Virus record (IMG/VR): IMGVR_UViG_3300047320_000210 | Span: 19,922 to 83,921 of that record | From: a virus | Direction: 5' to 3' (one strand) | DNA length: 64,000 nucleotides | Shown: positions 7,016 to 64,000 of the stretch, one piece after another | Layout of the letters: each line of letters opens with the position of its first letter | Numbering within the stretch: position 1 is the stretch's first letter | The notes under the pieces: model-generated | What the model saw: only the letters and a program-made list of their open reading frames with translations | The model's database searches: none | Told to the model about the DNA's origin: nothing | Program-made: the position numbers and the translations under genes

Positions 7016-7552
7016 ATGTCGTTGTTCCGCCAAAGCAAGCCGAAGGTCACGCTGCTGTTCAAGGAAGTCCTTGGCGAAATCATCGAAACCCAGCCCGACC
7101 TGCCCCTTGGGGTGGCCATCGAACTGGCGGCCGAACAAGCCAAGCTCCCCTGCCCCGATTTGGAGGCGATGGCCCGGCGCCTGATGGAAGACGCCGCACC
7201 GCCGCCCGAGGAAAAGCCGTCCCAGCCCGGCCCGAAAGGCAATGGCTACGGCGCGAACTGGAGCACCTGGTTAAACGGCCTGAAGACCGACCAGCTGTGC
7301 TTGTGGCTGTCCGACTACGACGCGCAACGGGCGCAGCACTTGTACTGCGAGGTCGAGATGGACCTCGTCAAGGCAATGATCGAACTGAAGACCGCCCACA
7401 TCTGGCAAGACCTGCGCACCCGCTTTGAAGCCTGTCTGCTCGGCTTCGGCGGCAAGTTGGGCAGTCAGGACACCACCGTCCATGACATCGACATGACCGA
7501 CAAGCAGTCGGTGGACTCGATGATCGACATCATGAAAAAACTGGGGTTCTAA
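7016..7552 (+). CDS. Tail assembly chaperone
   Basis: A 178-residue protein between tail tube and tape measure, the invariable position of gpG/GT-type chaperones that coat the tape measure before tube assembly. The N-terminal 60 residues are compact, residues 60-80 are a Pro-rich linker, and the C-terminal half is helical and acidic. ACGGAGG precedes ATG 7016. A run AAAAAA close to the stop could slip, but no second frame continues past it, so I see no convincing programmed frameshift. Confidence 0.7.
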   Translation: MSLFRQSKPKVTLLFKEVLGEIIETQPDLPLGVAIELAAEQAKLPCPDLEAMARRLMEDAAPPPEEKPSQPGPKGNGYGANWSTWLNGLKTDQLCLWLSDYDAQRAQHLYCEVEMDLVKAMIELKTAHIWQDLRTRFEACLLGFGGKLGSQDTTVHDIDMTDKQSVDSMIDIMKKLGF

Positions 7553-19137: not shown

Positions 19138-21567
19138 ATGACAATCACACTGCAGCGCCTAGCGACGACCGGTGAAACGGCCTACATCGCCAAGCACAAC
19201 GCGAACTACGACACCCTCGAATCCTCGGTCAACACCCTGCAGGGCACGGTCTACACCTTGCAGCAAGCGTCGGCCAGTCCGGGGAACCTGTTCAACATCG
19301 GCAAGGCGATGTTCGGCCCGACCGCCGTGGCGGTGATCGGCGAGACCTCGTTCGCCAGCAGCACCTCGGGCACCAACCTGACGCTGCAGCCCGGCTTCTA
19401 TTGGAACGCCAGCAGCGCGCTGATGGCGTACAAGGCCACCACCACGGTGATTCCGTTCAGTGGCGCCACCGCCGGCACCTACTACGTGCGCATGGGGATT
19501 GACGGCATCCCCTACCGGGACACCAGCAGCGCGGCGGCGCTGTACTCGGTGGTCTGGACCGGCTCGGCGTTCGGCACGGTGGCCAAGCTGGCCAGCTACG
19601 CTCCGGGCTACCAGGACCTGCTCGATCTGCTCAGCAGCAGCTACTCCGGCCTGAGTTACGCCAGCCCGGACAAGCGCATCGAAGCCACGGAAAAGGCCTT
19701 CAGCGCTTTGCTCAGCAAGGCGATCACCACCGCCGACGTCACCCTGACCGCCACCGAAGCCCTGGAACAGGGGGTGATCCGCCTGACCGGGACCCCAACA
19801 GCGGCGCGCAACCTGATCGTGCCGGCCAAGGCCAAGGTCTACTTCATCGACAACGACACCGCCGGCGCCTTCGCCGTGACTGTGAAGACCGCCAGCGGCA
19901 CCGGCGTGGCACTGGCCAGCGGCACCAACGGCGCGTTGTTCTGCGACGGTACCAACGTGGTGTCGATTGCGACCGCCGCCGGCAGCGGCGGCGCCTCGGT
20001 GTTCACCGACTTGACCGACGTGCCGGCGAGCTATGCCGGGCAGGCGAACAAAGTAGTCAAGGTCAAGGCCGACGAGAGCGGGCTGGAGTATTCCAGCGCC
20101 GCCGCTCCCACTGTGTTTACCGGCCTCACCGACGCCCCAGCGAGCTACACCGGGCAGGCGGGCAAGGTGCCGATCGTCAACGTCGGCGAAACCGCACTGG
20201 TGTTTGGCGACCCGGTGTCCACCTATCTGGCCCTGACCGACACCCCGGCGAGTTACGCCGGTCAGGCCTACCGCGTTGTGTCGGTCAAGGGGGACGAGAG
20301 CGGGCTGGAGTTTACGGCGGCAGCGGCCCCATCGACCCTACTCGCCTTGACCGACACGCCTGACAGCTACGCCGCCAGCGCCCTGATGGTGCTGCGGGTC
20401 AATGCCGCCGGCACCGCCGTCGAGTTCGCCGCCGGCACCGGCCCGCAGAATTTTCTGGAGTTGCCGGACACCCCGGCCAACTACACCTCCAGCGCCTTGA
20501 AATTCGTCCGGGTCAACGCGGCGATGACGGCGCTGGAGTTCGCCCCGCTGACCATGACAACCCTGCTCGGTCTGACCGACACGCCGGACTCCTATGCGGG
20601 TTCCGCGTTCAAGGTGGTCACCGTCAAGGGCGATGAGAGTGGTATCGAGTTTTCGGCCGGCGCCACCCCCACCAGTTTCATCGGGCTCACGGATGCGCCC
20701 ACCAGTTACACCGGGCAAGGCAGCAAGACGGTCAAAGTCAAGTCCGACGCCTCGGGGTTGGAGTTTGTCACGGTGCCGGCGGGCATCACCGCCTTCACCG
20801 GCCTGAGTGACGCACCGGCCAACTACACTGGCGCGGCGAACATGAAGGTCAAGGTCAACTCTGCGGGTACAGGGCTGGAGTTTGTCACCGACACTGCCGG
20901 GGTCACTGCTTTCACAGGCCTCAGTGATGCCCCAGCCAACTACACCGGCGCGGCCACCTACAAAGTGCGCGTCAACTCGGCCGGCACGGCATTGGAGTTT
21001 GTGGCAGACACACGCGCCTTTACCAGCCTCACAGACGTGCCGGCGAACTACACCGGCGCCGCCAACAAAAAGGTTCGGGTCAACTCGGCAGGGACTGGCT
21101 TGGAGTTCGTTACCGACACCACTGGGGCCACGGCGTTTACCGGCCTGTCCGATGTGCCGGCCAACTACACCGGCGCGGCACTCAAGAAAGTACGGGTCAA
21201 CAGCGGCGCCACGGCGCTGGAGTTTGTCGACGAACCCTTTGCTGCCAACTGCACCTGGAACGGCGTAACCACCGCGAGCCTGGTGCTGATCCACCTGCCC
21301 ATGCCGGTCGCCGTGACCTTCGCCGCCGCATTCGCCGGGTCGTATGGGGTTGCCACTACGGCCGCCACCGCGCAGACCGACTTCGACATCAAGAAAAATG
21401 GCACCTCGGTGGGCACCCTGCGCTTCGCTGCGGCAGCCACCACCGCCACTTTTATCGCCGCTTCGCCCGTGAGTTTCGCTGCGGGCGACGTGTTGAAACT
21501 GGTCGGACCGGCCACGCCGGATGCCACCTTGGCCACGCTTGGCCTCACCCTCAAAGGAGTACGCTGA
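19138..21567 (+). CDS. Repeat-containing tail fibre protein
   Basis: An 809-residue fibre. Residues 1-285 form the attachment region, with a short coiled coil near residues 20-45. Residues about 288-700 contain eleven tandem copies of a 36-39-residue unit with consensus D-x-P-A-x-Y-x-G followed by V-x-V-N and G-L-E-F. The C-terminal 110 residues form a separate compact domain. Such repeats build long trimeric shafts and vary in number by recombination. AAAGGAATG provides the start, and the next gene begins two bases after the stop. Confidence 0.85.
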   Translation: MTITLQRLATTGETAYIAKHNANYDTLESSVNTLQGTVYTLQQASASPGNLFNIGKAMFGPTAVAVIGETSFASSTSGTNLTLQPGFYWNASSALMAYKATTTVIPFSGATAGTYYVRMGIDGIPYRDTSSAAALYSVVWTGSAFGTVAKLASYAPGYQDLLDLLSSSYSGLSYASPDKRIEATEKAFSALLSKAITTADVTLTATEALEQGVIRLTGTPTAARNLIVPAKAKVYFIDNDTAGAFAVTVKTASGTGVALASGTNGALFCDGTNVVSIATAAGSGGASVFTDLTDVPASYAGQANKVVKVKADESGLEYSSAAAPTVFTGLTDAPASYTGQAGKVPIVNVGETALVFGDPVSTYLALTDTPASYAGQAYRVVSVKGDESGLEFTAAAAPSTLLALTDTPDSYAASALMVLRVNAAGTAVEFAAGTGPQNFLELPDTPANYTSSALKFVRVNAAMTALEFAPLTMTTLLGLTDTPDSYAGSAFKVVTVKGDESGIEFSAGATPTSFIGLTDAPTSYTGQGSKTVKVKSDASGLEFVTVPAGITAFTGLSDAPANYTGAANMKVKVNSAGTGLEFVTDTAGVTAFTGLSDAPANYTGAATYKVRVNSAGTALEFVADTRAFTSLTDVPANYTGAANKKVRVNSAGTGLEFVTDTTGATAFTGLSDVPANYTGAALKKVRVNSGATALEFVDEPFAANCTWNGVTTASLVLIHLPMPVAVTFAAAFAGSYGVATTAATAQTDFDIKKNGTSVGTLRFAAAATTATFIAASPVSFAAGDVLKLVGPATPDATLATLGLTLKGVR
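20001..21236 (+). repeat. Eleven tandem ~110-bp repeats in the fibre gene
   Basis: Each unit encodes a version of 'F-x-G-L-x-D-x-P-A-x-Y-x-G' then 'V-K-V-N-x-x-G-T-G-L-E-F'. The last four or five copies are the most alike at DNA level, which points to recent duplication at the 3' side of the array. Confidence 0.9.
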
Positions 21568-23507: not shown

Positions 23508-23894
23508 ATGCCTACGACCATCGAAGAACGCCGGGCCGGGTATTCGCGGCTTGCCCGCATTGTCACCGCCGTGAGTGCCACGCTGGCCACCGCGATCCTG
23601 TTTGGTTTCCTGTCCAGCGTGCAGGACCTGGTGAAACAAGGCCCCGTCCTGGCCGCCCACATGGCGGCCACCAACCAGAAACTCAGCGCGATTGAGAACG
23701 AACAGGCCTCGGCCAAGATGGCCATCGCCTCCCTGTTGAAGGACTACACCTCGCGCGAGCAACTGCAGGGTGAGTTGGAAAAGCTCAACGAGAAGATCCG
23801 CGCGCTGCAGGTGCAGCAGGCCGTGATCGAGATGATTTTGAAGTCGGGGAAGACCGGAACAATCCGGCAGGGGGGGAATTATGGGCAGTCCTGA
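23508..23894 (+). CDS. Membrane-anchored coiled-coil protein of the lysis cassette
   Basis: A 128-residue protein with one N-terminal membrane segment (about residues 16-38) followed by a coiled coil (about residues 55-115). Topology resembles an inner-membrane spanin or a lysis accessory protein. CGAAGGAGAG precedes ATG 23508. Its last 14 bases overlap the holin-like gene. No outer-membrane lipoprotein partner was found, so the spanin idea is only an option. Confidence 0.6.
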   Translation: MPTTIEERRAGYSRLARIVTAVSATLATAILFGFLSSVQDLVKQGPVLAAHMAATNQKLSAIENEQASAKMAIASLLKDYTSREQLQGELEKLNEKIRALQVQQAVIEMILKSGKTGTIRQGGNYGQS

Positions 23895-42534: not shown

Positions 42535-42909
42535 TTAGATCGGCTTCGCCCAAGTCAGGACGGTCTTCAAACCGAACTGCTCGATCCAGCCCTTGATGGT
42601 GAGGTGATCGCGGCGGCCGGAGTCAACCACGTCGCCGCTGTGCGGGTTGGTCCAGCGTTTCATCTTGCCCACATGCGCCTTGCCTTTAGGCGCGCTCGAC
42701 TTCTCGGCGGCCTTGATCGCCATCTGCTGCCCGTGCATGAAGGCGTACAGCTTGTCCTTGGACATCGAGTATTTAGACAGCAGGTCTTCCAGCTCGGCGT
42801 CGAATTCCAGTTCGCGTTTCAGCTCAGGATCATTCCTGAGTTCTTCGACGGCGGTAACTTGTTTGGCCAGCGCCAATTGCGCGGCTTTAAACTCGGCGAT
42901 CTTGAACAT
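42535..42909 (-). CDS. MvaT-family H-NS-like protein, copy 1
   Basis: A 124-residue protein aligned by eye with Pseudomonas MvaT/MvaU. It has an N-terminal coiled coil with 'DPELKRELEFDAELEDLLSKY' character, a basic linker, and the C-terminal domain beginning NPHSGDVV (88-95) and ending near 'LTIKGWIEQFG'. MvaT proteins coat A/T-rich DNA and silence foreign genes. The loop that in MvaT contains the Gly-Asn 'AT-pincer' is here SGRRDH. AAGGAAG precedes ATG. Together with copy 2 it points to a Pseudomonas host. Confidence 0.82.
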   Translation of the reverse strand: MFKIAEFKAAQLALAKQVTAVEELRNDPELKRELEFDAELEDLLSKYSMSKDKLYAFMHGQQMAIKAAEKSSAPKGKAHVGKMKRWTNPHSGDVVDSGRRDHLTIKGWIEQFGLKTVLTWAKPI

Positions 42910-42955
42910 CTGTACTTCCTTAGTGGGGTAATTTCAACGGTTCAGCAGGTGGAAC

Positions 42956-43336
42956 TTAGGCCTGTAGCCACGACTGCACGACGTCTTCGCCGTAGGTCTC
43001 GACCCACAGTTTGTAGGTGCCGTGGCTCAGGCGTTTGATCGTCAGCACGTCGCCGGTGTGGGGGTTGAGGAACGTCTTTGCGTCCTCGGGACCAGTCGCG
43101 CGAGTCGCCTTAGTCTTGCTGGCGACCGGCTTCTTGTAGAAGTCCGAGGTGATGTCCGCTTTCAAGAACAGCTGCAGCTTGACCTTGTTCATCGAGTGCT
43201 GCGCAAGGAAGTCGTCCAGGGCCACGTCGAAGGCTATCTCTTTCTGCAGTTGCGGGTCTTGCTTGAGGGCTTCGAGGTAGGTGTACTTCTGAGCAAGTTG
43301 CAGTTCGAGTTCGCGGTACTGTTCAATAGCTAACAT
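42956..43336 (-). CDS. MvaT-family H-NS-like protein, copy 2
   Basis: A 126-residue paralogue of the gene next to it. 'DPQLQKEIAFDVALDDFLAQH' character in the N-terminal coil and NPHTGDVLT (91-99) then 'VVQSWLQA' at the C-terminus match MvaT/MvaU. The AT-pincer loop is changed to 'KRLSHGT'. I start it at ATG 43336, seven bases after AAGGA, because the ATG at 43342 is too close to that site. Copies 1 and 2 are clearly diverged, so the duplication is old or they came from different sources. Confidence 0.8.
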   Translation of the reverse strand: MLAIEQYRELELQLAQKYTYLEALKQDPQLQKEIAFDVALDDFLAQHSMNKVKLQLFLKADITSDFYKKPVASKTKATRATGPEDAKTFLNPHTGDVLTIKRLSHGTYKLWVETYGEDVVQSWLQA

Positions 43337-43364
43337 AGGCATGTCCTTATTATTAAAAGAATAT

Positions 43365-48043: not shown

Positions 48044-48280
48044 CTACAGGGAACCGTAGCCGTCTTTTTCAAGCGAGGCCTTGATCAGCCCGCTCAGGGT
48101 TTTCGGACCTTCATCGTCTTCTTTGTTCTGCAGCCGACGTTCCTCCAGTCGACGCACCAGCGACTTCGGTAGGCTGATCGACAGCGACACCGGCACGTCC
48201 TTGACCCCGTCGTAGGGGATGTCGGACAGCTTTTTCTGCAGCCGCGCGGCGACGTCGGTCGCGGTTTCGGACTTAGACAT
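48044..48280 (-). CDS. Ribbon-helix-helix partner of ParA
   Basis: A 78-residue protein. Residues about 29-75 fit a ribbon-helix-helix fold: strand 'VPVSLSISLPKSLVRRLEE' and two helices. Type Ib partition systems pair a short ParA with exactly such a protein (ParG size 76), which binds the centromere and represses the operon. It overlaps the parA end by 8 bases. The N-terminal 28 residues would be the flexible tail that stimulates ParA. Confidence 0.7.
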   Translation of the reverse strand: MSKSETATDVAARLQKKLSDIPYDGVKDVPVSLSISLPKSLVRRLEERRLQNKEDDEGPKTLSGLIKASLEKDGYGSL

Positions 48281-48914
48281 GGAACACCTCGGTCATCAGT
48301 TCATTGATCTCTTGGATCGCGTCTTTGTTGCGTAGCTCCAGCACCGACAGCCCGAGGTCGGTGCTGTCCTTGTAGACCTTGCGCGAGCGGCCGATGCTGT
48401 TGAGCACTTCGAATTCAGGGAAGGCCGCCAGCCTCTTGAGGAATTTCGCCCGTTCGCTGACCCTGCCAGCGCTGTGCGTGCTGGCGATGGCCTGATAGAC
48501 CAACACCCGCAGCTTGGGGTTTTCCGGCTTGATTTCGGCGTACTGTTTGCGCAGCTGGCGCAGCGTGTCGAGGTCGAAGTCGCTGCACTGGTGCGGCGCG
48601 ATCACCACGTCCGCCACCACCATGGAGGTGATCAGCTCGGCGCTGTTGCGCCCGGCGACGTCGACCAGCACATGGTCGTACTGGGCGGCGAGACGGGTGA
48701 CGGCGTCCACCAGATTGCCGTACTTCTGCGTGAGGGGCACCTTCGGCAGGTGGTTGCCCGCTTCCCGGTGGCCATACCACAGGTGACCGCTGGCCTGGCC
48801 GTCGGCGTCGAGCACGCAGACGTTCTTGCCCTTGCGCATCAGCCCCACCGCGAGGTTCACGCAGGTGGTGGACTTGCCGGCGCCGCCCTTGTTGCACCCG
48901 CACACGACGATCAC
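48273..48914 (-). CDS. parA: ParA-type partition ATPase
   Basis: A 213-residue type Ib ParA with deviant Walker A KGGAGKST (9-16), 'VLDADGQAS' (A'-motif) and 'VLVDVAG' (Walker B). The start is probably GTG 48914, overlapping the TGA of an 8-codon leader; the longer upstream frame is non-homologous. It lacks the N-terminal HTH of type Ia ParA. With the RHH partner it would segregate a plasmid-like prophage. Candidate centromere/operator palindromes lie directly upstream at 48967 and 49010. Confidence 0.85.
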   Translation of the reverse strand: MIVVCGCNKGGAGKSTTCVNLAVGLMRKGKNVCVLDADGQASGHLWYGHREAGNHLPKVPLTQKYGNLVDAVTRLAAQYDHVLVDVAGRNSAELITSMVVADVVIAPHQCSDFDLDTLRQLRKQYAEIKPENPKLRVLVYQAIASTHSAGRVSERAKFLKRLAAFPEFEVLNSIGRSRKVYKDSTDLGLSVLELRNKDAIQEINELMTEVFHV

Positions 48915-48937
48915 GGGGTCATACCTGCAAAGTTCAT
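48911..48937 (-). CDS. Eight-codon leader peptide coupled to parA
   Basis: ATG 48937 follows GGGAGAAGAAAC and encodes MNFAGMTP, then TGA. The TGA overlaps the parA GTG (GTGA). The strong Shine-Dalgarno belongs to this tiny frame rather than to parA itself, suggesting that parA is translated by re-initiation. This would limit ParA amounts. Confidence 0.55.
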   Translation of the reverse strand: MNFAGMTP

Positions 48938-48966
48938 GTTTCTTCTCCCGGGGCGTGAAAAACCAG

Positions 48967-48983
48967 TGGGTACTGTGTACCCA
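48967..48983. promoter_or_regulatory. Inverted repeat upstream of parA
   Basis: TGGGTAC-TGT-GTACCCA, arms of 7 bp, lies 30-46 bases before the leader ATG. Position suits an operator or part of a centromere bound by the RHH protein. A related sequence recurs at 63945-63959. Confidence 0.55.
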
Positions 48984-49009
48984 TCGCGGGAGCGTAGCCA
49001 GAGCGCTGC

Positions 49010-49029
49010 GAATAAGCAATTGCTTATTC
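49010..49029. repeat. Perfect 20-bp A/T-rich palindrome before parA
   Basis: GAATAAGCAATTGCTTATTC is perfectly symmetrical. It overlaps the stop codon of the upstream small gene and shares the ATTGC core with the dispersed heptamer tracts. It could be a centromere, operator or transcription stop. Confidence 0.65.
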
Positions 49030-60423: not shown

Positions 60424-61029
60424 CTAGCCAGCGGCCTGCGCTGACTTCACCGCCTGGACGGTGGACTTCGCGCAGTCACAAACCGTGGCGATCTTCCTGA
60501 TCGACACGCCCTCGGCCAGCAACAACTTGATTCGTTCGTGCAAGGCGGCATCGGGCACCCGGCCCTTGTACTTGCCGTCGGCCTTGGCCTTGTCGATGCC
60601 GGCCTGTGCCTTGCGCAACCGTTCTTCATGCTGGCGCGAGCTGACTGCGCCGAGGATGTCGAGCAGCAGCTCGTTCATCAGGTTCGGTTCGTGACTCTTG
60701 GCGTCCGTCGCCGCCCAGGAACCGGGCACGTCCAGGGCGATCACGCGCAAGCGTTTCTCGCGGATGATCCGGCGCAGCTCCTGCCACTCTGGCGCCTTCA
60801 ACCGGCCCAGTCGTTTCACGCGATCACACAGCAGCATGTCGTAGGGCTTCGCCTCGGTCAGCATGCGCAGCAGTTCGGGGCGCTTGAAGGTCTGGCCGGC
60901 GTCGTCTTCGACGTAAGTGGCGACCAGATCGAGGTCGTGCTCTTCAACGAACGCCGTCAACGTCGGAATGATTCGTTCGTAGCCCAGCGCCGCGACGTAG
61001 GCGCGCACGGAATAGTTAGGGGTCGGCAT
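60424..61029 (-). CDS. Serine recombinase-like protein lacking the catalytic serine
   Basis: A 201-residue resolvase/invertase-type protein: 'ATYVEDDAG', 'KRPELLRML', 'DRVKRLGRL', a long helix and a C-terminal HTH ('GVSIRKIATVCDCAKSTV'). The usual start R-A-Y-x-R-A-Ser is here RAYVAAL (9-15), so Leu15 (codon CTG) stands where the catalytic Ser should be and the nearby Arg is Ala. It can probably bind DNA but not cut it. It ends in a good terminator. A regulator or a decaying copy are both possible. Confidence 0.75.
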   Translation of the reverse strand: MPTPNYSVRAYVAALGYERIIPTLTAFVEEHDLDLVATYVEDDAGQTFKRPELLRMLTEAKPYDMLLCDRVKRLGRLKAPEWQELRRIIREKRLRVIALDVPGSWAATDAKSHEPNLMNELLLDILGAVSSRQHEERLRKAQAGIDKAKADGKYKGRVPDAALHERIKLLLAEGVSIRKIATVCDCAKSTVQAVKSAQAAG

Positions 61030-61096
61030 GAATGCCTCCTTCAAGTGGGGGATTGATCCGTTCCAGGTTGCTGCAGGTAAATGACGCCTTCGTAGC

Positions 61097-61663
61097 TCAG
61101 GCGGTTTCGTCCTGCGTGGCTGGCAGGTGACGGTAGAGCGTGGCCAGCGAGACGCCAAGGTTTTTTGCCACGTCAGGCATGGGTTCGCCCGAGGCCAAGA
61201 GTTTGCGCGCGCTGTTGATTTTGCTCGCGGTCATCTTGCGGGGCCTACCGCCAAAGCGACCGAGCGCGTTGGCGGCATCGAGCCCGGCGCGCGTTCTCTC
61301 CAGAATCAATTCCCGCTCCATTTGAGCGAAGGCTGCGACGATGTGAAAAAACAGCCGGCCCATGGCCGACGACGTGTCGAGCTGTTCGGTCAGGCTTTTG
61401 AATTTGATCCCGGCCTTGTCGAACTGCTCCATCAGCAAAATCAGTTGCTTGAGACTGCGCCCGAGGCGATCGAGCTTCCACACGACCAGCGTGTCACCTG
61501 GGCGCAGCCTGGCTAACAGGTCATCGAGCACGGGGCGCTCCTTGACGCTGCTCTCTTTTTCGAGAAAAACCTGATCGACGTCGGGCTCTTTGGCGAACGC
61601 CTGCGTTTGCAGCGCCAAATTTTGCTTCTCCTTGTCGGAGATCCTGCCGTAGCAGAATTTCAT
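61097..61663 (-). CDS. Serine resolvase/invertase
   Basis: A 188-residue small serine recombinase with intact catalytic motifs: YGRIS with Ser9, 'RPGDTLVVWKLDRLGRS', 'SLTEQLDTSSAMGRLFFHIVAAFAQMERE' character, and the C-terminal HTH 'EPMPDVAKNLGVSLATLYRHL'. It may resolve multimers or invert DNA. I place the start at ATG 61663 (TAGGAGG upstream). Its leader region (61664-61869) contains repeated TTGAGA motifs likely to be operator or recombination sites. No inverted segment was seen in the window. Confidence 0.9.
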   Translation of the reverse strand: MKFCYGRISDKEKQNLALQTQAFAKEPDVDQVFLEKESSVKERPVLDDLLARLRPGDTLVVWKLDRLGRSLKQLILLMEQFDKAGIKFKSLTEQLDTSSAMGRLFFHIVAAFAQMERELILERTRAGLDAANALGRFGGRPRKMTASKINSARKLLASGEPMPDVAKNLGVSLATLYRHLPATQDETA

Positions 61664-61692
61664 AGCTGTACCTCCTAGGAGAGTGGTGGGGA

Positions 61693-61856
61693 TTCTCAAA
61701 ACTCAAGGCAAACGGAAATTTTCTCACAACTCGCGTTTGGGGGGTGGTTTCGAGAAAAGGTTTTGAGAGAGGTATTTGAGAACGGGAAACGCCCGGTTTT
61801 TGGGCCGGGCGATTTCCGTCTCAAACTTTCGCAAATGCGACCGTTATTGAGAACGG
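61693..61856. repeat. Cluster of TTGAGA/TCTCAA motifs
   Basis: TTCTCAAA at 61693, TTTTGAGAG at 61761, TTTGAGAAC at 61775, GTCTCAAAC at 61819 and TTATTGAGAACGG at 61844, in both orientations. These lie in the 205-base leader of the resolvase gene and could bind the resolvase, its inactive relative or a repressor. Confidence 0.65.
61790..61811 (-). terminator. Terminator between the 112-residue gene and the resolvase
   Basis: CGCCCGG and CCGGGCG pair around an 8-base loop; TTTCCCGTT follows on the minus strand. It ends the transcript from the right end. Confidence 0.65.
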
Positions 61857-61869
61857 CCAAACGCGGGGT

Positions 61870-62208
61870 TTAGCGCTTTTTGTCGCGCCGGTGGGATTTA
61901 CTCATGGCCTTGGCCAACTCCCGGCCAAACGTGCCACGTTGCGCTTTTTTCTCCGCGCGCTGTTTCGCCTGGAGCAGCCCAGGCGCGCGCGGCTGTGTCG
62001 CGTTTTCCTCCAGCGCGTGAATCAGTTGCGCTTGCCGAAGTTGGTACAGCACGCGCGGGATCAAATCGGCCCGGTCGCGCTCGCGATCTGCGAGATCGGC
62101 AGAAAACAGGCTCGCGGGGGACCGGTCGCCGAAGTCGTCGCCCCACATGGATTCCGTCGTGTGATGTCGTCGCCAGTCACTGGCGCCTGTCGAATCGTCG
62201 AAGGCCAT
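61870..62208 (-). CDS. Unknown basic protein
   Basis: A 112-residue protein. I choose ATG 62208, seven bases after AGGAGG. The first half is acidic with 'DDFGDRSPASLFSADLADRE'; the second half is helical and ends in 'AMSKSHRRDKKR', a basic tail. Palindrome copy A lies 14-33 bases upstream of the start, in operator position. No family recognised. Confidence 0.65.
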   Translation of the reverse strand: MAFDDSTGASDWRRHHTTESMWGDDFGDRSPASLFSADLADRERDRADLIPRVLYQLRQAQLIHALEENATQPRAPGLLQAKQRAEKKAQRGTFGRELAKAMSKSHRRDKKR

Positions 62209-62221
62209 GGTCATTCCTCCT

Positions 62222-62241
62222 ACGCGCCACATGTGGCGCGT
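62222..62241. repeat. Palindrome copy A
   Basis: ACGCGCCACATGTGGCGCGT, perfect over 20 bp, in the gap between a terminator and the 112-residue gene. Core GCGCCACATGTGGCGC. Confidence 0.85.
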
Positions 62242-62276
62242 CACATGCGCCGGAAAAATCAGGCGCGCACACGAAA

Positions 62277-62297
62277 GCCCCCCGACTAGCGGGGGGC
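62277..62297 (-). terminator. Terminator after the 395-residue gene
   Basis: GCCCCCC and GGGGGGC pair around a 7-base loop with CTTT on the minus strand behind it and GTTTT on the plus strand. It lies 19 bases beyond the stop of the 395-residue gene and separates it from the following gene. Confidence 0.75.
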
Positions 62298-62315
62298 GTT
62301 TTCACGTCTGGCGGT

Positions 62316-63503
62316 TTAGCTGTTTTGCGCGTCCAGCTTTGCCGCTGCGCGCGCTGCATCGTCCGTCGCTTTCGCCTTAATCGCGTTGGCGATGGCCATG
62401 GCGCCCAAACTGGCGTTTTGCGCCTCACGCGCCAACTTGTCACGCTGCAATTGTTCACTGCAAACAAAGTGCAGCATGGCGGACCATGCTGCGCCATCCA
62501 GCGCCATCAGCCCAGCATGCGCGCCATCGGCAGACTTGCCGAAGGCGCCGACGACAGCCTTTGTCGCTTTTTCGGCAGTGGTCGCGCCCCCGTCAAGGTC
62601 GCACTCTGAATAGTCGCCGGTCTGCAAATTGACCTTAACGCCATACTTTTTAAGCTGGCGCTCTATCCGAGTGACAATCACGTTTCGCGCCCCCTTGCAC
62701 GCTGCGCTGCGCTGCTTAGCTGGCGCATCGTCGGGCATGCTCTCAAGGGCTTTTTCTTGCGCTGCTTTTATGGCGATGTTGGCGAGCCCCACATATTCGA
62801 CCAACAACGGCGCAGAGTCGGCGCACAGCGGGAAGTCTGGCGCTGTCGGCTCGCCATCCTTGCCGAATTCGCACAGCTCAAGGTCCAGCAGCACAGCGAC
62901 CGGCAGAAACATTTTGTCGCCCAGCGTTTGCGCCCACTTAACCGCATCTTTTTTGTGGGCGGACGCGCCACATGTGGCGCCATGGCTGCGCGCACTTTTG
63001 AGCAACTTGGCAAAGGCGACATCAGCGGCGCCCCGTTTTTCTGCTTGCTCAATACCGTAGTCCGACAGCTCAGCAGCAAGCTTGCTGGCGGCAAGTGCTG
63101 ACAGGTCTGGAATATCCAGCTCAGCAGTGGACTTGTATGCACGGCCGACAGCAGCGGCCTTTGCTTTGTCGATGGTCACTTTGCTGACGGGCGACAGCTT
63201 GCCAGCAACATCGACAGGCGCCACATGTGGCGCCGACAGCGTGCCGATGGTCGCGCCCAGCGTAGGCAATACATCAGGTACGTCTGCCAGCTCAGCAAAC
63301 AACGCTGCACAGCCTTGCTCGCCCAGCTTGCCCAGCAAGTCAGCAAGGGGGCGAGCCTCAAGCGAGCACAGCAAGGCGCCACATGTGGCGCCGTGAAGGT
63401 CTGACAGCATGGCGCTTGCCGCTGCGCCATCGGCACAAGCGACCAACAACACGGACAGGTCTGACAGGCTAGGCCTATCAGACATAAGGGCTTGACTGTT
63501 CAT
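62316..63503 (-). CDS. Unknown Ala-rich 395-residue protein containing three palindrome copies
   Basis: A 395-residue protein, Ala-rich, with two Cys-containing segments HGATCGA that are encoded by the palindrome itself. It has helical patches ('IERQLKKYGVKVNLQTG', 'KAKATDDAARAAAKLDAQ') and no recognised motif. GGGAG lies about nine bases before ATG 63503, which overlaps the stop of a small membrane gene. The DNA carries three of the four palindromes, in two different codon registers. A role in binding or copying those sites is speculation. Confidence 0.7.
   Translation of the reverse strand: MNSQALMSDRPSLSDLSVLLVACADGAAASAMLSDLHGATCGALLCSLEARPLADLLGKLGEQGCAALFAELADVPDVLPTLGATIGTLSAPHVAPVDVAGKLSPVSKVTIDKAKAAAVGRAYKSTAELDIPDLSALAASKLAAELSDYGIEQAEKRGAADVAFAKLLKSARSHGATCGASAHKKDAVKWAQTLGDKMFLPVAVLLDLELCEFGKDGEPTAPDFPLCADSAPLLVEYVGLANIAIKAAQEKALESMPDDAPAKQRSAACKGARNVIVTRIERQLKKYGVKVNLQTGDYSECDLDGGATTAEKATKAVVGAFGKSADGAHAGLMALDGAAWSAMLHFVCSEQLQRDKLAREAQNASLGAMAIANAIKAKATDDAARAAAKLDAQNS
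62965..62980. repeat. Palindrome copy B
   Basis: GCGCCACATGTGGCGC, 16 bp, inside the 395-residue gene, reading as Gly-Ala-Thr-Cys-Gly-Ala on the minus strand. Confidence 0.85.
63217..63234. repeat. Palindrome copy C
   Basis: GGCGCCACATGTGGCGCC, 18 bp. Here the codons read Ala-Pro-His-Val-Ala-Pro, a different register from copies B and D. Confidence 0.85.
63375..63392. repeat. Palindrome copy D
   Basis: GGCGCCACATGTGGCGCC, 18 bp, near the start of the 395-residue gene, with codons as in copy B. Confidence 0.85.
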
Positions 63504-63628
63504 CTAGTAGCACTCCCGTTAACGGACAGCGCCAGCTTGCCAATGACACTGCTAGTAACGCCACCTACAGCGCCCCCTAGGGCAACGGCAAGGGCAAGGG
63601 CGATAAGCACAGCGGCAACGGCTCTCAT
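63500..63628 (-). CDS. Small hydrophobic peptide (one membrane segment)
   Basis: A 42-residue peptide too short for most gene callers. It begins MRAVAAVLIALALAV and stays hydrophobic and Gly-rich to residue 30, then ends in a polar tail. AAGGAGAG precedes ATG 63628 and its TGA overlaps the next ATG, so translation is coupled. It could be a small membrane peptide, an export signal-like product or a toxin-like peptide; no antidote was found. Confidence 0.6.
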   Translation of the reverse strand: MRAVAAVLIALALAVALGGAVGGVTSSVIGKLALSVNGSATR

Positions 63629-63642
63629 GATGGCGACTCTCC

Positions 63643-63726
63643 TTAATGCTGGCAGTGGCGTTGGGCCATGGCATCAGCGAACACGCATACAACTAAGAGC
63701 AAGCCTAGTCCACCCCATACCGGCAC
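63643..63726 (-). CDS. Possible 27-residue membrane peptide
   Basis: From GTG 63726 a hydrophobic peptide starting MPVWGGLGLLLVVCVFADAM can be read; its TAA overlaps the Shine-Dalgarno of the next gene. No convincing ribosome-binding site is seen, so it may not be translated. Confidence 0.3.
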   Translation of the reverse strand: MPVWGGLGLLLVVCVFADAMAQRHCQH

Positions 63727-63944
63727 ACAAGCATTTTTTAAAAGAGACGCCACCCCCTGACGCCTGGGCAACACCTGGACGGCAGACGCCTGGGCGCAGC
63801 CTGGCTAAAGCATGATAAGCACAGCAACAAACGTGCCAGCATGCAACAAACAAGCCACCCACCCCACACTTTTTTCCGACCGACGGACTTGACACACCTC
63901 CCTACAGACCCCCTCGCCACCCAAAACCCCCTCAAAATCCCAGC

Positions 63945-63959
63945 TGTACCCAGTACCCA
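63945..63959. promoter_or_regulatory. Sequence related to the parA upstream repeat
   Basis: TGTACCCAGTACCCA; its reverse complement TGGGTACTGGGTACA matches TGGGTACTGTGTACCCA at 48967 in 12 of the first 14 positions or so. It may bind the same protein. Confidence 0.45.
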
Positions 63960-63977
63960 CGGAAAATACCGTGCCAA

Positions 63978-63994
63978 TTAACGCGCCACGTTAA
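63978..63994. promoter_or_regulatory. Inverted repeat at the right edge
   Basis: TTAACG-CGCCA-CGTTAA, 6-bp arms around 5 bases, in a 60-base gene-free stretch at the window edge. Operator-like. Confidence 0.4.
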
Positions 63995-64000
63995 AACAAT

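Follow-up and report, generated by a model that had tools for sequence, protein, structure and literature searches.

A lineage-private cluster of identical palindromes within and beside a phage gene as putative sites for a DNA-binding protein

The 16-bp palindrome GCGCCACATGTGGCGC occurs in four exact copies, here called A to D, within 1.17 kb of the window, by which we mean the whole 64,000-nucleotide stretch analysed, corresponding to positions 19,922 to 83,921 of the 83,921-bp IMG/VR virus record IMGVR_UViG_3300047320_000210 (Table 1). The cluster is real and, within the searches made, private to its lineage. The dyads are identical, appear in two codon registers, are tightly clustered, are retained as copies A to C in a second allele, and are absent from the rest of the record and from the two related records that extend to the locus. 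Together these properties lead us to favour, with slightly better than even confidence, the interpretation that the palindromes are putative duplex-DNA sites for a dimeric sequence-specific protein of a diverged early module of this phage.

Table 1 Palindrome copies, module features and candidate binding proteins (coordinates are window positions).
Feature	Coordinates	Strand	Description
Copy A	62222-62241 (core 62224-62239)		20-bp perfect dyad ACGCGCCACATGTGGCGCGT
Copy B	62965-62980		16-bp dyad in 395-codon gene, register 1, Gly-Ala-Thr-Cys-Gly-Ala
Copy C	63217-63234 (core 63218-63233)		18-bp dyad in 395-codon gene, register 0, Ala-Pro-His-Val-Ala-Pro
Copy D	63375-63392 (core 63376-63391)		18-bp dyad in 395-codon gene, register 1, Gly-Ala-Thr-Cys-Gly-Ala
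395-aa protein	62316-63503	-	alanine-rich, acidic, pI 5.5, no family match
Terminator-like stem	62277-62297	-	after 395-aa gene; similar stem there in G017 and G018
112-aa protein	61870-62208	-	basic, pI 10.0, helical by a low-confidence prediction
TCTCAA/TTGAGA res-like array	61693-61852		before 200-aa recombinase; unlike the palindrome
Serine recombinase, 200 aa	61097-61699	-	resolvase/invertase family; unmatched in six related records compared
Second serine recombinase, 244-aa ORF	60424-61158	-	38-40% identical to counterpart in G017 and G018
ParA-family partition ATPase	48273-49019	-	considered as partner, judged unlikely
RHH-like protein, 78 aa	48044-48280	-	directly downstream of parA; PF01402 E 0.048, below curated cut-off
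Nocardia loci (seven species)			L066, L069, L101, L123, L131, L136, L169

An earlier note on this DNA had reported four copies of the palindrome, and all four carry the exact core; for A, C and D it gave the start of the longer dyad that surrounds the core. When up to 3 mismatches are allowed, the window contains one extra site (43560), making 5 in total against a shuffle mean of 1.66, with 3-mismatch matches counted too. Among 60 simulated 64-kb sequences, no 16-mer was present in more than 2 copies. Across all 83,921 bp of the record, the central octamer CACATGTG is present seven times, always within the palindrome, and three of these occurrences belong to the second allele, found where the contig begins; outside the palindrome sites of the two alleles, the rest of the record is devoid of it. 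The search of the whole record that the note had called for reveals no scatter, and none of the further GCGCCACATGTGGCGC-type copies that are typical of a mobile palindromic repeat were found elsewhere in the record. At 10.5 bp per turn, copies B and C are separated by 24.1 turns and C and D by 15.0, both close to integers, but A and B by 70.6. A 6-bp direct repeat, seen by eye, flanks copy C only and is taken as chance.

Inside the 395-codon gene, copies B and D are read in register 1 and copy C in register 0, as the note had claimed. Given the encoded residues and the codon usage of the gene, exact cores would arise by synonymous codon choice with P = 1.3e-7 for the three copies in allele 1 and P = 6.1e-6 for the two copies in allele 2. 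Exact cores in two registers, at P ~1e-7, point to constraint at the level of the nucleic acid or to copying. This independence of register thus supports the proposal that selection acts on the DNA rather than on the protein, and copying fits it too. Four cores without any variation are unusual for operators, and invariant cores also fit recent copying.

The second allele comes from the ends of the contig: 2,438 bases at its start and 2,437 at its finish (record 1-2438 and window 61565-64000) align over their whole length with 89.7% identity. Because this alignment takes in both terminal bases of the contig, the overlap probably represents a circular phage of ~81.5 kb whose assembly from mixed strains retained two alleles; a true 2.4-kb duplication at the ends was rejected for the same reason. 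In allele 2, copies A, B and C are exact, but D is missing, with no difference in length. Copy A is identical there (record 659-678), copy B lies inside a 20-nt identical run with synonymous changes on either side, and copy C lies inside a 34-nt identical run. Between the alleles, the DNA of the 395-aa gene is 82.6% identical, falling to 44-54% in its 5' part (two windows around D). Since 20% of the 16-nt windows of this gene are identical between the alleles anyway, the retention of B and C (P ~0.04) would by itself be weak evidence of constraint.

The major capsid protein of the phage finds matches in 31 of 50,697 phage records, the best at 39.6% identity in Vibrio phage SHOU24 and with Pseudomonas phage PMBT3 also among them, and capsid-protein relatives in IMG/VR amount to 28 loci. 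The DNA polymerase, terminase, and helicase belong to known phage families. Two adjacent MvaT-like genes (window 42535-43342), one just above its family cut-off and one below, are matched in relatives G003, G004 and G018, and such genes in a phage may indicate a Pseudomonas-like host. A 207-aa protein (L005:6015-6638) resembles by eye the RepL-type plasmid replication initiators, with no family match; alongside ParA and the resolvases, such a protein would be consistent with life as a phage-plasmid.

Two related IMG/VR records, G017 (locus L055) and G018 (L057), contain the same locus, with a recombinase, a 107-aa protein that is 36-38% identical to the 112-aa protein, and a distant homologue of the 395-aa protein of 320 aa in G017 and 337 aa in G018; by eye, both also include a small putative membrane protein. 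The palindrome is absent from both records, where the best matches have 3 mismatches. G018 is complete, with 120-bp identical ends; when as many as 3 mismatches are tolerated, it yields one site only, which has all 3. With the limit set at 2 mismatches, only one of 16 other related records, whose capsid protein is 37% identical, gave a match, at one position, compared with 8 of the 16 for a reversed control pattern; several of these records are fragments, and G004, the largest close one, ends short of the locus. At the same threshold the palindrome is missing from records with 67-93% identical major capsid proteins, of which only two reach the locus. In front of the same gene, G017 and G018 instead have another inverted repeat, CGCGCCCAGGGCGCG, once per record and with no extra copies, which has the outer stem CGCGCC/GGCGCG in common with copy A around a different centre. 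That CGCGCCCAGGGCGCG corresponds to copy A is likely but not certain, with the alignment program pairing the relatives' repeat with neighbouring bases instead. Should the correspondence hold, a symmetric leader element would predate the lineage, and the ACATGT-centred form and the extra copies would be new here.

The module stands out from the rest of the record by its divergence. Among the 94 record ORFs matched in six related records, the best identity is at least 50% for 85, and only five ORFs are at 40% or below: the 395-aa ORF, the 112-aa ORF of either allele, the 244-aa recombinase, and an antisense ORF that is probably spurious. A further 12 of 106 ORFs are unmatched in these six records. 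We link the sites to the module because they occur only there, among the most diverged ORFs of the record. The note had named absence of the site from homologues with a conserved protein as evidence against a binding site. This is found in part, with G018 lacking the site, but the module proteins of the relatives are themselves only about 33-40% identical.

These comparisons bear on the strongest alternative, which we consider unlikely, that the palindrome was recently copied and has no regulatory role. Copy A would have spread into the adjacent gene through template switching or gene conversion and been tolerated there in an alanine-rich protein. In this the copies would resemble the small GC-rich palindromes of fungal mitochondrial DNA. 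Copying would explain why the copies are identical and limited to one lineage and ~1.2 kb, and the relatives' inverted repeat with the outer stem of A makes A possibly ancestral and B to D derived. Copies D, C and B also fall in segments that are gapped relative to the distant homologues, in an alignment of 27% identity and low reliability. However, D differs between the alleles at the same length, so no simple insertion is apparent, and a 16-bp insertion would shift the reading frame. Further, B has stayed exact though both of its flanking codons changed synonymously.

Copy A has a distinctive position. The Shine-Dalgarno sequence AGGAGG of the 112-aa gene (62216-62221, minus strand) is directly adjoined by the 20-bp dyad, placing the core 16-31 nt before the probable start codon, ATG (62208). 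The suggestion that A occupies an operator position is supported, and the position is equally that of a leader; a promoter scan found no sigma-70-like match beside it. The cumulative GC skew reaches its maximum at window position 61895 and its minimum at 23752, close to both switches in gene direction. The cluster lies within 1.5 kb of the maximum, near the divergent polarity switch where the leftward genes start. Divergent switches of this kind are a usual place of phage control regions, and the position of the cluster fits a control region and, equally, any early gene.

Copy A might alternatively act as RNA. In this model, which we regard as improbable, hairpins of the form GCGCCA-CAUG-UGGCGC would form in the module mRNA, with A controlling translation of the 112-aa protein and B to D binding the same RNA-binding protein or base-pairing with A via their CAUG loops, which are self-complementary. 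Copy A does fold as an 8-pair stem with a CAUG loop beside the Shine-Dalgarno sequence, the relatives' inverted repeat has the same outer stem with another centre and also precedes a Shine-Dalgarno sequence, and the 112-aa protein is basic. In contrast, the fold energies are unexceptional (z of -1.9, -1.2, -1.0 and -0.8), B has no hairpin in the minimum-energy fold, and the relatives' leaders give z of +1.0 and -0.1. An invariant and fully self-complementary centre is typical of a DNA dyad, and an RNA hairpin needs none.

Neither the 395-aa nor the 112-aa protein has a family match above cut-off, and their structure models are poor, with mean pLDDT of 40.9 and 68.1, respectively. The 395-aa protein is unmatched in plasmids and phages and, by single-sequence search, in viral contigs, and a profile search of viral contigs gave one distant relative among the matches listed. 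Its distant homologues were reached via the adjacent gene, for a 157-aa product, and via the 320-aa protein, which matches the 395-aa protein with a blastp value of 1e-9. The 112-aa protein has no match in viral contigs and matches 0 of 369 genomes of a Pseudomonas genome's class, and the 395-aa profile matches 0 of 18 Pseudomonas-genus genomes, both being sets that include no known-positive genome and so say little. When the module DNA was compared with plasmids, only the recombinase part appeared among the best matches.

The recombinases raise the possibility, in our view a very improbable one, that the palindromes are crossover or accessory sites for a serine recombinase that inverts or deletes DNA within the 395-aa gene. 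The 200-aa recombinase is found only in the palindrome-bearing record when this is compared with six related ones, and the 5' part of the 395-aa gene is highly variable between alleles around D. However, the DNA preceding this recombinase contains an array of a different motif, with 5 of the record's 30 TCTCAA/TTGAGA hexamers in 160 bp, and the palindrome is not there; the array is probably the recombinase's own binding region. Sites for serine recombinases are generally longer than 16-20 bp, which counts against the palindromes serving as such. Recombination of C with B or D would also change the reading frame, and after inversion between B and D the frame continuing out of the palindrome would end at a stop codon at 63101 (ORF 62757-63101).

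Least probable of all is a partition centromere for the phage ParA and RHH-like pair, which the presence of both proteins and the form of the sites, several 16-bp palindromes with some intragenic, as in Pseudomonas aeruginosa parS (PMC4368675), would suit, but the pair is conserved in complete G018 where the site is absent, the sites lie ~13-15 kb from parA, and the record has no ParB_N domain. Identity to the counterparts in G018 and G004 is 63% and 62% for ParA and 56% and 62% for the RHH-like protein, in which the strand presumed to contact DNA is also conserved (VPVSLSISLP compared with VPASITISLP). No repeat array surrounds parA. The note's proposal of ParA/RHH centromere sites is accordingly weakened by the conservation of the pair in G018, whose best site match has 3 mismatches, although the site may have diverged jointly with the RHH-like protein.

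Two other roles proposed in the note can be judged from the same comparisons. For operators of a lytic/lysogenic switch, the record encodes a Cro/C1-type HTH (HTH_3) protein (record 7039-7305) whose HTH stretch GTSKSYLWEIEHGQ is identical in four of six related records, these being the ones where the protein was found. This conservation in relatives without the site speaks against that protein as the partner, and a set of operators belonging to the module is still viable. Packaging or condensation sites have lost ground, with the copies confined to 1.2 kb and the palindrome missing from relatives with high capsid identity, a comparison in which only two relatives reach the locus. A binding protein would be expected to diverge along with its site. 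Because the conserved DNA-binding proteins examined occur in relatives that lack the site, the diverged proteins of the module are favoured as the binder. Apart from the HTH of the recombinases, the module proteins contain no recognised regulator domain. Assignment to a module protein is by exclusion and linkage, and another ORF of the record or a host protein could be the binder.

If the palindromes are binding sites, the likeliest binder would be the 112-aa protein, the 395-aa protein, or a recombinase acting as a regulator. The protein would bind A next to the 112-aa gene's start, and B to D, which lie upstream in the same gene run, would be auxiliary or nucleation sites. The outcome could be repression or road-blocking of the early module, as in autoregulation or immunity-like control, or marking of the region. 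Counted against binding sites are the absence of D from allele 2, the lack of a promoter-like match beside A and of any family match above cut-off for the 395-aa and 112-aa proteins, and the relatives' single, different inverted repeat before the same gene, which has no extra copies. A more specific version, which we put forward as a doubtful idea, is that the 395-aa gene carries an in-frame cluster of sites for its own product or that of its operon partner, a candidate new class of binding protein. The leader dyad A would then have multiplied into the coding sequence, with gene and array evolving as one unit and making up a small control or partition module peculiar to this phage lineage.

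Outside this phage, a search of 84,980 species genomes found the 16-mer in at least 118 stretches, with a single copy in each one listed. At 107 usable loci, as judged by crude ORF picking, the site is inside an ORF in 76 and outside in 31. Most of these occurrences look like chance, given the single copies and the 76 of 107 loci inside ORFs, and four cellular genomes that were checked whole have one copy each. In seven Nocardia species (Table 1), the 16-mer is equally placed upstream of a gene that by eye appears to encode an acyl-CoA-ligase-like protein. The flanking bases are as conserved as the palindrome, which is part of a conserved block and forms no island; in one species a second, 10-bp core, CCACATGTGG, lies 29 bp from the exact site. 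In two Rhizobium species (L095 and L147), the palindrome has a shared position outside ORFs, next to a gene resembling by eye that for glucose-6-phosphate dehydrogenase. Among the papers listed in a literature search for the core, none concerns such an element by title, and within the scope of the literature searches made the element is undescribed.

Among viral sequences, the 16-mer scan found 6 stretches with one copy each. A 14-mer scan found 42 stretches, of which 40 have one 12-mer core, L203 has two, and L204 has three. The two 14-mer copies in L203 sit inside a repeat protein and were set aside as coincidence. L204 is a phage contig of another kind, with three GCCACATGTGGC cores in 86 bp (L204:8452-8541) between two minus-strand ORFs; a mechanically called 172-aa ORF overlaps the cores, and two copies are in an apparent tandem duplication. 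The Nocardia and L204 cases show that the dyad can occupy operator-like places and make the operator reading plausible. The support from Nocardia is limited because it consists of one orthologous element, in a distant phylum, with flanks that are equally conserved.

If the dyads bind a protein of the module, they would offer a probe for two phage protein families without a known domain, and a regulatory set that arose inside a coding gene in one lineage whose relatives lack it. If there is no binding, they would be a clear-cut case of one short palindrome repeated identically in two codon registers with no evident binder.

Several known systems use dispersed dyads of comparable form. The parS sites of Pseudomonas aeruginosa are described as 16-bp palindromes bound by ParB, with four principal sites, two perfect and two with one mismatch, some of them intragenic (PMC4368675). 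Like these, the phage sites are 16-bp palindromes in several copies and partly intragenic, but the parS sequence, TGTTCCACGTGGAACA, differs. A search for ParB_N (PF02195) found no match in the phage record itself, with control matches in 11 of 14 genomes, and G018 has ParA without the site. The KorB operators of plasmid RK2 are several short palindromic sites for a ParB-family protein that act in repression at a distance and in partition (PMC11790492), 12 in number according to the title of a reference cited there. The phage cluster likewise comprises several short palindromes, in a record without a ParB_N protein. The stoperators of Cluster A mycobacteriophages are repeated sites for one phage protein, with a sequence that differs between related phages, and they are asymmetric, 13 bp long, and mostly in one orientation relative to transcription (PMC6550527); in contrast, the palindromes described here are symmetric and number four at one locus. 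The Nocardia element is the same 16-mer in an operator-like position but is one exact site at a cellular gene in a distant phylum. With no ParB_N protein, an RHH centromere test that fails in G018, and the asymmetry of stoperators, the cluster appears to belong to none of the systems tested, but it would work much as the dispersed sites of parS, KorB operators, and phage stoperators do.
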